The notes below the pieces were generated by a model. It had not been told where the DNA came from, searched no databases, and worked only from the letters and a program-made list of their open reading frames with translations. Below, piece after piece: positions 3,593 through 6,536 of a DNA stretch of 64,000 bases; position 1 is the first letter of the stretch, and each line of letters begins with the position of its first letter. This DNA is from an uncultured Chitinophagaceae bacterium (GTDB lineage Bacteria > Bacteroidota > Bacteroidia > Chitinophagales > Chitinophagaceae): positions 1 through 64,000 of the forward strand of contig CALJNC010000036.1 in assembly GCA_937981995.1 (NCBI GenBank), given 5' to 3'. The position numbers were made by a program, and so were the translations under genes.

Positions 3593-3961
3593 ATGAAAAA
3601 TTTTTTACTCGTTTTTTTAGGTGGAGGATTAGGCAGTGGATTGCGCTACCTACTTTCTATCGTTTTTGAAGCAAAAAAAACGGGCTTCCCTACTGGAACA
3701 TTTCTAGCTAATATTTTAGGTAGCTTGCTTATAGGAATTTTACTAGCACTATTTATAAAAAATCAAGATTGGGAGCACCAATATAAGCTACTTGCGGTAG
3801 TTGGTTTTTGTGGAGGCTTTACTACCATGTCATCTTTTAGTATGGAGAATATTCAATTTTTACGAGATGGAAATTATAGCATGTTTGCGCTTTATTTGAT
3901 TCTTACCATTGCCGTTTCTCTATTATGTACCTTTCTAGGTTTTCAAATAATAAAATCCTAG
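3593..3961 (+). CDS. crcB: Fluoride channel CrcB/FluC
   Basis: 122 aa, four hydrophobic segments, 'GGGLGSGLRYLLS', 'GTFLANILGSLLIG', 'GFCGGFTTMSSFSME'. Confidence 0.95.
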   Translation: MKNFLLVFLGGGLGSGLRYLLSIVFEAKKTGFPTGTFLANILGSLLIGILLALFIKNQDWEHQYKLLAVVGFCGGFTTMSSFSMENIQFLRDGNYSMFALYLILTIAVSLLCTFLGFQIIKS

Positions 3962-3964
3962 ATG

Positions 3965-4075
3965 AAAAAAACCGTCCCAAGAGTGAGACGGTTTTATCTT
4001 GTGTAATTAAACACAACCCCTATTTATGAAAAAACTATACACTAATAAGACGCTGCTTTGAGTATATTATTACAT
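3965..4075. repeat. Copy A of a tandem ~115-bp intergenic element (terminator hairpin, short palindrome, conserved tail)
   Basis: ACCGTC...GACGGT stem followed by TTGTGTAATTAAACACAA and CCCTATTTATGAAAAAACTATACACTAATAAGACG. Confidence 0.75.
3968..3997. terminator. Rho-independent terminator, bidirectional
   Basis: A-run, ACCGTC/GACGGT stem, T-run, 3' of crcB. Confidence 0.75.
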
Positions 4076-4115
4076 AGCATATGTCACTTTATATTTTCTT
4101 TATGATATGCAGTAT

Positions 4116-4150
4116 AAAAAACCGCCACGCAGAAGCGCGGCGGTTTTTTA
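4116..4150. terminator. Rho-independent terminator, bidirectional
   Basis: AAAAAACCGCC...GGCGGTTTTTT. Confidence 0.75.
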
Positions 4151-4229
4151 TCGTGTAATTAAACACAATCCCTATTTCTGAAAAAACTATATACTTATTA
4201 GACGTCGTTCTATTGCTTTTATTACTACA
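4116..4229. repeat. Copy B of the tandem intergenic element
   Basis: ACCGCC...GGCGGT stem followed by GTGTAATTAAACACAA and CCCTATTTCTGAAAAAACTATATACTTATTAGACG; 152 bp offset from copy A. Confidence 0.75.
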
Positions 4230-4348
4230 CCCTTTCAGATTTATATTATATTTAACAGCTTGCTAATCAGCTACCTATAAAATAAGGGTTTCGTTAAATT
4301 AAAAAGAAATCTACGGCATTACATTAGATTTCAAATATCTTTGTTACA

Positions 4349-5428
4349 ATGAAATATTTAGTACTCGGAGTGATGCTTTTAGGCTTCATGGCCTCTTGTC
4401 AAAGTAAAAAAGGATTTGAAATAAACGGCACCGTAAAAAACCAAAAGGATGGGAAAATATTTTTAGTAAATCTACACACTGAAAAACAAGATACCTTAGA
4501 TATAAAAGATGGGAAGTTTACTGCTACGGGAGTGACTGAAGAGCCAACACCTTTCCTTATATACTCAGCCGATGTACTACCAGCTCAAACAATATTTTTT
4601 GCAGAGAATGGTACTACAAAAATCGAGTTTACGGCTAATGAACCTTCAACTGTAAAAATAAAAGGTTGCGCAACGCAAGATGAATACGTAGAGTTTACCG
4701 AAATGACAAAACCATTATTAGATCAATTTGACTCAGTACAAACCTTAGCCATGGCAGGCAAATTAGAACAAGCCGAAGTGCAAAAAGTTGCTATGGAAAT
4801 TCAAAAAAAATACGAAGAGGCGAATCTTACATTTGTAAAAAATAATCCAAGTAGTTATGTATCTTCTTTACTTACGTATGAGTATTTTAGGCAAAAACCT
4901 CAACTTGCATCAAAAGATAAAAAAGCGCTTTTAGACAAATTAGACCCAAAAATTCAAGAAAGCCATTTTGGAAAAAAAATGGTTGAATTAATAGGTGCCA
5001 ATGAATCAACCGCGGCCGGTAAGGAAGCCCCAAACTTTACTTTACCAGACCCAAATGATAAAAATGTGAGCCTTGCTTCATATAAAGGCAAATACGTATT
5101 AATAGATTTTTGGGCAAGCTGGTGCGGACCTTGTCGTGCTGAGAATCCTAATGTAGTAGCAGCCTACAAAAAATATAAAAACAAAAACTTTACCATCCTA
5201 GGTGTATCCTTAGATGAAAATAAAAAGCAATGGTTAGCCGCTATTAAAAAGGATAATCTTACTTGGAAACACGTTTCAGACTTAAGTGGTTGGAATAGCA
5301 GTGTGGTAAGCTTATATAATATCAAATCTATTCCTTCAAATGTATTGCTTGATCCGCAGGGTAATATAATTGCAAAAGATTTACGCGGATTAGATCTTGA
5401 AAATCAATTAAGCAATTTACTTAAATAA
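4349..5428 (+). CDS. Lipoprotein thiol:disulfide oxidoreductase (DUF4369-like N-terminus + TlpA/ResA thioredoxin domain)
   Basis: Lipobox-like 'LLGFMASC'; 'DFWASWCGPCRAENPNVVAAY' (CGPC). Confidence 0.88.
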   Translation: MKYLVLGVMLLGFMASCQSKKGFEINGTVKNQKDGKIFLVNLHTEKQDTLDIKDGKFTATGVTEEPTPFLIYSADVLPAQTIFFAENGTTKIEFTANEPSTVKIKGCATQDEYVEFTEMTKPLLDQFDSVQTLAMAGKLEQAEVQKVAMEIQKKYEEANLTFVKNNPSSYVSSLLTYEYFRQKPQLASKDKKALLDKLDPKIQESHFGKKMVELIGANESTAAGKEAPNFTLPDPNDKNVSLASYKGKYVLIDFWASWCGPCRAENPNVVAAYKKYKNKNFTILGVSLDENKKQWLAAIKKDNLTWKHVSDLSGWNSSVVSLYNIKSIPSNVLLDPQGNIIAKDLRGLDLENQLSNLLK

Positions 5429-5429
5429 T

Positions 5430-6536
5430 ATGAAAAAAACAGTTACGTTCCTACTACTTCTACTAAGCACACAAGCATGGTCACAATCCATTACTATTAA
5501 AATTGATAAGGACATTAGTGAAGCTCAAAAAAAGTCTACTAACTTGAATTATGAAAATTACTTAATTCAAAATTTGATTACTTATAAAATTGACACGCTT
5601 ACGGTTGCCAATGGAAAAATTTCTATCCCAAATAATACAAATACACTAACACCCTTTGCCATAGCTAGAGTGCAGCCGCGTCAGGCTATGATATTTTTTG
5701 TGGAGCCAAAAAACAACTTTAAACTTACTCTCTCTGAGCCATCGCTGACTATTAAGCAAGCCGCTGGTAGTAAAGCACAGGATGATTATTTACAATTTAT
5801 GGAAGTGCAAAGCAAACTTCAAAAACAATCTCAGACAGCACAGGCGGCCATGGCAAAAACAAAAAATCAGGATAGCATACGTGACCGCGTTAAATATCTT
5901 CAACTTCAGATGAATGCCGAATATGTAAGTTTTGTAAACGAGCAAAAAGATAACAATTTGGGCTCCTATATGGTATTTGATATCGCTAATAAAAATCAAA
6001 GCATTGCCGCTAAGGACTTACAAGGTGTATTTAACCAACTAAGTGAGCAAGGCAAAAAAACACATTTTGGAAAACAAGTTGGCAATCGTATTACTAGACT
6101 TACCGCTATGGACGTAGGTAGTATTTCACCTGACTTTACGCTAAGCGACGCTAAAGGGAAGAAACATACTTTAAGCAGCTTAAAAGGCAAGTATGTATTG
6201 TTAGATTTTTGGGCAAGTTGGTGCGGTCCATGTGTAAAGGAAATACCACATTTAAAAACTGCATACAAGAAATACCACGAGAAAGGTTTTGAAATAATGA
6301 GCGTTTCTATTGATCGTAAAAAAGCACAATGGTTAAAGGCAGTAGAGAAATATAAGATGCCATGGATTAGCGTAATAGACCACGCCGATAATGCTAAAAA
6401 AATTACGCAAACCTTATATTACGTACCGTCCATACCTCGTACAGTTTTACTTGATAAAACGGGTAAGGTAATTGGAAAAGATTTTAGAGGTGCTGCTTTA
6501 GAGCAACAGCTTTCTAAAATATTTGATGGCAAGTAA
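5430..6536 (+). CDS. Thiol:disulfide oxidoreductase (DUF4369-like + TlpA), tandem paralogue
   Basis: Signal peptide; 'DFWASWCGPCVKEIPHLKTAY'; same architecture as the preceding gene. Confidence 0.88.
   Translation: MKKTVTFLLLLLSTQAWSQSITIKIDKDISEAQKKSTNLNYENYLIQNLITYKIDTLTVANGKISIPNNTNTLTPFAIARVQPRQAMIFFVEPKNNFKLTLSEPSLTIKQAAGSKAQDDYLQFMEVQSKLQKQSQTAQAAMAKTKNQDSIRDRVKYLQLQMNAEYVSFVNEQKDNNLGSYMVFDIANKNQSIAAKDLQGVFNQLSEQGKKTHFGKQVGNRITRLTAMDVGSISPDFTLSDAKGKKHTLSSLKGKYVLLDFWASWCGPCVKEIPHLKTAYKKYHEKGFEIMSVSIDRKKAQWLKAVEKYKMPWISVIDHADNAKKITQTLYYVPSIPRTVLLDKTGKVIGKDFRGAALEQQLSKIFDGK

Follow-up and report, generated by a model that had tools for sequence, protein, structure and literature searches.

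GibS and FopS of Bacteroides thetaiotaomicron are paralogous sRNAs that each carry a single-stranded 5' seed and a terminator and pair with start regions (PMC7366714, PMC11697453). FopS pairs with the starts of susC transporter genes, and its promoters are of the housekeeping-type sigmaABfr class (PMC7366714, PMC11697453). In Flavobacterium psychrophilum, ECF promoters are recognisable by a CGT box at -10 and drive type IX secretion genes (PMC9723704). No study of Chitinophagaceae sRNAs turned up in the literature library searched. Here we describe two elements from an uncultured sludge bacterium of this family that, as predicted from their sequence, very probably constitute a pair of minus-strand sRNAs.

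The window analysed is a stretch of 64,000 nucleotides from the 2.73-Mb genome of this bacterium (G000, the own genome). It contains two 112-nt copies at 3962-4073 and 4114-4225, which align without gaps at 73% identity and are offset by 152 bp, confirming by alignment the two neighbouring copies at this distance that had been noticed earlier. The preliminary description gave the element as about 115 bp; the duplication itself held, and its extent had to be revised, because the real unit is longer once the promoter is counted (to about 4104 for copy 1 and 4256 for copy 2). The pair is flanked by crcB (3593-3961, plus strand; PF02537) and two DUF4369-thioredoxin genes. It is far above chance, as the units recur in two other species with E-values of 1e-15 to 1e-21 per genome. 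The total stands at six units from three congeneric species, with two per genome (own, G089 and G167).

BLAST of 197 family genomes, a covariance model run on 396 family genomes and a scan for the exact pattern in 84,980 species gave answers that agree, and the unit was absent from the other 393 family genomes searched. The covariance-model search for homologues that had been suggested as a check added two further species, all within one genus. Its four weak matches outside the genus were poor: one was a start-like stretch and none had the full layout. The exact pattern matched outside the genus only three times (in Chryseobacterium, in another Bacteroidetes MAG and in Cytobacillus), at what are ordinary gene starts judging by their context. 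No match was found in the viral contigs or plasmids searched. An Rfam scan of the window returned nothing at the gathering threshold, its low-threshold hits being terminator look-alikes. The features of the locus are as follows.

3965..4042, minus strand: sRNA 1, predicted transcript of ~78 nt; unit conserved in three species, start at ~4042 deduced from the promoter position, 3' end in the U-run 3965-3971
4088..4104, minus strand: sRNA 1 upstream box CATAAAGAAAATATAAA, lying 13 nt ahead of the -35; perhaps bound by an activator or of UP type
4069..4074, minus strand: sRNA 1 putative -35, TGTAAT, from the six-copy alignment
4047..4052, minus strand: sRNA 1 putative -10, CGTCTT, 16 nt from the -35; in F. 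psychrophilum SM6 a CGT box here is the hallmark of ECF promoters (PMC9723704)
4018..4042, minus strand: sRNA 1 putative 5' seed GUGUAUAGUUUUUUCAUAAAUAGGG, reverse complement of CCCUAUUUAUGAAAAAACUAUAC, nearly invariant in six copies
3999..4016, minus strand: sRNA 1 small hairpin TTGTGT-TTAATT-ACACAA, from the fold; replaced in G167 by GAGC-tetraloop-GCTC hairpins
3965..3998, minus strand: sRNA 1 intrinsic terminator, stem plus U7, from fold and covariation
4116..4194, minus strand: sRNA 2, predicted transcript of ~79 nt; conserved unit, start estimated at ~4194
4240..4256, minus strand: sRNA 2 upstream box GTTAAATATAATATAAA, from the six-copy alignment
4221..4226, minus strand: sRNA 2 putative -35, AGTAAT (weaker), from the six-copy alignment
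4199..4204, minus strand: sRNA 2 putative -10, CGTCTA, from the six-copy alignment
4170..4194, minus strand: sRNA 2 putative 5' seed, with CAG replacing CAU; no start preference
4151..4168, minus strand: sRNA 2 small hairpin TTGTGT-TTAATT-ACACGA with one U.G pair, from the fold
4114..4150, minus strand: sRNA 2 intrinsic terminator, GC-rich stem plus U6, from the fold
4349-5428 and 5430-6536, plus strand: DUF4369-thioredoxin genes, beyond the sRNA pair

Upstream of the units, alignment in the same sense gave GTTAAAGAAAATATAAA-N13-TGTAAY-N16-CGTCTA. The boxes are conserved at constant distances while the spacers drift, a pattern that is promoter-like. TGTAAY-N16-CGTCT is present in four of the six copies and AGTAAT takes the place of the -35 in a fifth (sRNA 2); the -10 reads CGTCTT in copy 1 and CGTTTT in G167b, the copy with the most degenerate promoter. 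The upstream box GTTAAAGAAAATATAAA keeps its distance in all six copies except for a 1-nt gap in G167b; elsewhere in the genome, none of the eight best-looking sites examined is accompanied by this promoter. The housekeeping TAnnTTTG box (sigmaABfr type) was not found in any of the six. We predict that the sRNA promoters are of the ECF-sigma type, which we regard as probable. TGTAAT-N16-CGTCTGTTTAT also stands directly before orthologous DM13 lipoprotein genes in the own genome and G089, where the flanks have diverged (own C27:8740, L100:1500-1965; G089 C127, L110), and judging by this sequence these genes are likely members of a shared ECF regulon. An ECF sigma gene that is orthologous in all three species (own C11:93401, G089 C30, G167 C110; L167, L168, L169) has TGTAAC-N16-CGATATA just upstream of its start codon, a putative promoter that is probably autoregulatory. 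Since the -35 and the spacing of this promoter agree with those of the sRNAs and the -10 does so only in part, we do not name a particular ECF factor.

With the transcript start taken ~7 nt after the -10, the predicted 5' end is GURUAUAGUUUUUUCAUAAAUAGGG. Reverse-complementing the conserved 5' block, UAUAGUUUUUUCAUAAAUAGGG, gives a Bacteroidota translation start, CCCUAUUUAUGAAAAAACUAUA, and matches to the block in other genomes lie mostly antisense to apparent gene starts of signal-peptide proteins. Pairing was ranked on 346 gene starts from ~460 kb of the own genome and on ~340 kb of G089, with dinucleotide shuffles as control seeds. For the copy 1 seed, the difference between starts and gene interiors was -0.56 (shuffled seeds +0.25 +/- 0.33; 0/60 as extreme), and that between signal-peptide-like genes and others was -1.61 (shuffled +0.53 +/- 0.48; 0/60; Mann-Whitney p 3e-6). 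The G089 seed gave the same direction more weakly, with 4/60 and 2/60 shuffles as extreme. The copy 2 seed showed no preference for starts in the own-genome sample; because CAG replaces CAU in it, the whole AUG is no longer paired. From these comparisons we lean towards the prediction that the seed acts by anti-start pairing. In both the own genome and G089, one copy has the consensus seed and its twin a single change (CAG for CAT; AACTAGGG for AAATAGGG; window 4170-4194 and L058:3138-3165), which would fit twins that are drifting apart in their targets.

The strongest rival to anti-start pairing accepts the sRNA pair and takes the 5' block to be a promoter or initial transcribed region, or a protein-binding tag, whose likeness to a start codon is accidental. 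Any UUUUUUCAU block has a complement resembling a Bacteroidota start, many genomes that lack the sRNA contain start-like matches, and GibS and FopS bind RbpB via their 5' portion (PMC11697453). Against it, the preference for starts and signal-peptide genes is lost when the seed is shuffled at the dinucleotide level, and 22 nt of the block are nearly invariant across the six copies while the flanking spacers drift. We therefore consider an accidental likeness unlikely, and the block is treated below as a putative seed.

The best of the 346 sampled starts belongs to a 724-aa protein (C12:23921) with a Por_Secre_tail domain (PF18962), at -23.7 kcal/mol; it contains a 17-nt perfect complement to the seed, and 1/150 shuffled seeds did as well. 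A tandem paralogue of this type IX protein gene ranks fourth. The 17-nt complement is kept in G089 beside the orthologous Cu-ATPase, where the target gene is interrupted by an insertion sequence. There, on G089 C111 (L059:1-345), a transposase-like frame directly adjoins the opening codons of the C12:23921 ortholog, of which only the start region is left, and the contig ends. The orthologous start in G167 keeps ATTTATGAAAAAGCTA (-18.6), which is the ATTTATGAAAAA part only plus a G.U-containing extension. By a rough count, about one in five family genomes without the sRNA has BLAST matches equal to the best own target, and U-rich seeds pair readily with A-rich starts. No single target is as firm as the seed's general relation to start regions. 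The ECF sigma gene C11:93401 ranked second or third in the own genome and is not claimed as a target, because the CCCTA part is lost in G089 and G167.

On the minus strand, each unit runs from the nearly invariant block through a small hairpin to an intrinsic terminator, and folding of this strand compared with shuffles gave z-scores of -4.2 and -7.3 for the two copies. The preliminary description had proposed this sRNA layout; it is supported here and recurs in G089 and G167, and was incomplete in missing the promoter and the relation to start codons. Both terminator stems reported there are present (ACCGTC/GACGGT in one copy, ACCGCC/GGCGGT in the other). The hairpin TTGTGT-TTAATT-ACACAA ascribed to each copy was found in copy 1; copy 2 reads TCGTGTAATTAAACACAA, its plus strand having TCGTGT where copy 1 has TTGTGT. 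Read as minus strand, this change leaves a U.G wobble; read as plus strand, it leaves a C.A mismatch. The copy 2 terminator likewise carries a change that makes G.U on the minus strand and A.C on the plus. Because both changes pair only as minus-strand RNA, the minus strand is favoured as the transcript. The small hairpins of G167 are unrelated in sequence and yet keep the structure, as GAGC-UUCG-GCUC and GAGC-GAAA-GCUC. Read in the minus-strand sense, UUCG and GAAA both belong to the stable tetraloops of RNA.

In the six-copy alignment, 96.8% of cells pair and 7 of 17 pairs vary on both sides; covariation was 0.439 against 0.183 in shuffled alignments, and none of 500 shuffles equalled it. 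A stable hairpin and U-run on the predicted transcribed strand are thus kept by compensatory change. Paired stem changes had been read as selection on RNA structure. Since the covariation lies almost entirely within the terminator and the sequences, all related, number only six, it argues for selection on the terminator and the strand, and not for a complex fold. The 5' block folds back on itself partly in some predicted structures, and a long U.G helix from RNAalifold, pairing the block with GGGG, was discarded because it shows no covariation.

Could the unit instead be read on the plus strand, as a terminator and a hairpin with a short leader ORF that begins CCCTATTT-ATG-AAA-AAA-CTA-TAC? The block does read as a good start, and G167a stays open over a long stretch. 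However, copy 2 has CTG, the wobbles and tetraloops suit the minus strand only, and the terminator lies upstream and leaves no room for a promoter. Frames and stop positions also differ among the six copies, and so the ORF reading fails; we give it very little credence.

The surroundings of the units bear on two further alternatives to a minus-strand sRNA pair. As in the window, the G089 pair adjoins crcB, and the copy 1 terminator, which is bidirectional and begins 4 bp past the stop of crcB, may serve convergent transcription from crcB as well. The units might accordingly be tandem-duplicated terminators of crcB and its neighbours with no RNA of their own, the outcome that had been named as refuting the sRNA pair. 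The two G167 copies are away from crcB, one lying between tatD-like and flavin-reductase genes and the other between thioredoxin genes and a YkuD gene, so the units are not crcB terminators; moreover, a terminator has no need of a conserved promoter and 5' block. We rate this reading as highly improbable. A mobile or repeat element (MITE- or REP-like) or a transcription-factor palindrome, which the different places of the G167 copies might suggest, is just as improbable, because there are only two copies per genome, one copy adjoins a DUF4369-thioredoxin gene in all three species (crcB being no constant neighbour) and an unrelated hairpin replaces the palindrome in G167.

On balance we favour, as likely, a two-copy trans-acting sRNA that is driven by an ECF factor and blocks the starts of exported proteins. 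The two genes would encode one trans-acting RNA of ~78 nt from the minus strand, each driven by an ECF-sigma-type promoter that has a constant box upstream of it, and each gene would have an intrinsic terminator to stop its transcript. Through its single-stranded 5' end the RNA would pair with start regions of the form CCCUAUUUAUGAAAAAA; covering the start codon would block translation and lower the mRNAs, and exported proteins (with signal peptides, type IX-secreted) would be reduced when the ECF factor is active. GibS and FopS demonstrate that such a mechanism operates in Bacteroidota (PMC7366714, PMC11697453). The unit, its strand, the terminator and hairpin, the promoter-like spacing, the recurrence across three species and the antisense match to starts are based on sequence; transcription itself, the sigma factor, the transcription start, repression and the individual targets we infer.

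If this is true, the pair would represent a family of sRNAs that is new and lies outside Bacteroides and Flavobacterium, apparently controlled by an ECF sigma factor, and would connect the silencing of exported proteins in Bacteroidota with stress on the envelope or on secretion. Its seed suits the peculiar start regions of this phylum, which have no Shine-Dalgarno sequence and ATGAAAAAA signal peptides. A more tentative proposal, which we think possible rather than probable, is that the system is a Bacteroidota counterpart of sigmaE with RybB and MicA. Here an ECF factor would drive a twin sRNA with a generic anti-start seed (anti-AUGAAAAAA, with CCCUAUUU upstream), and exported and type IX cargo would be silenced collectively, with neither Hfq nor Shine-Dalgarno sequences involved. 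The simple design of seed and target is testable in a cultivable relative.

RybB and MicA are Hfq-dependent. If the inferred parts hold, these sigmaE-dependent sRNAs of E. coli and Salmonella (PMC1804206) and the pair described here would be alike in having an ECF-type promoter and a 5' seed directed against the starts of exported proteins; they have no sequence relation to the present sRNAs, whose targets are putative. Rfp18 of F. psychrophilum (PMC9723704), which we liken by description, is also a Bacteroidota sRNA linked to secreted proteins, in its case proteases. Unlike the start blocking proposed here, it pairs via its third stem-loop and supports the levels of its targets (PMC9723704). 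The ECF promoters of F. psychrophilum SM6 and the SigP regulon of Porphyromonas gingivalis offer a CGT at -10 and a link to type IX secretion for comparison; we claim no match to a PorX site. With GibS and FopS, the present sRNAs share paralogous copies (here two per genome, in three species), a conserved 5' seed, a terminator hairpin and complementarity of the seed to translation starts, which is here computed and weaker in G089. The GibS consensus begins GUGUUUUUCAUAGUA, and UUUUUCAU is common to GibS and the GUGUAUAGUUUUUUCAUAAAUAGGG seed. In contrast, the small hairpin between seed and terminator is extra relative to GibS and FopS, and the predicted promoter elements are ECF-type where FopS has the housekeeping TAnnTTTG. 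The GibS Rfam model scores 25.3 bits here against a cut-off of 115, so there is no Rfam-level homology. Given a score this far below the cut-off and the housekeeping promoter of FopS, we propose that the pair works like GibS and FopS and is not a member of their family.
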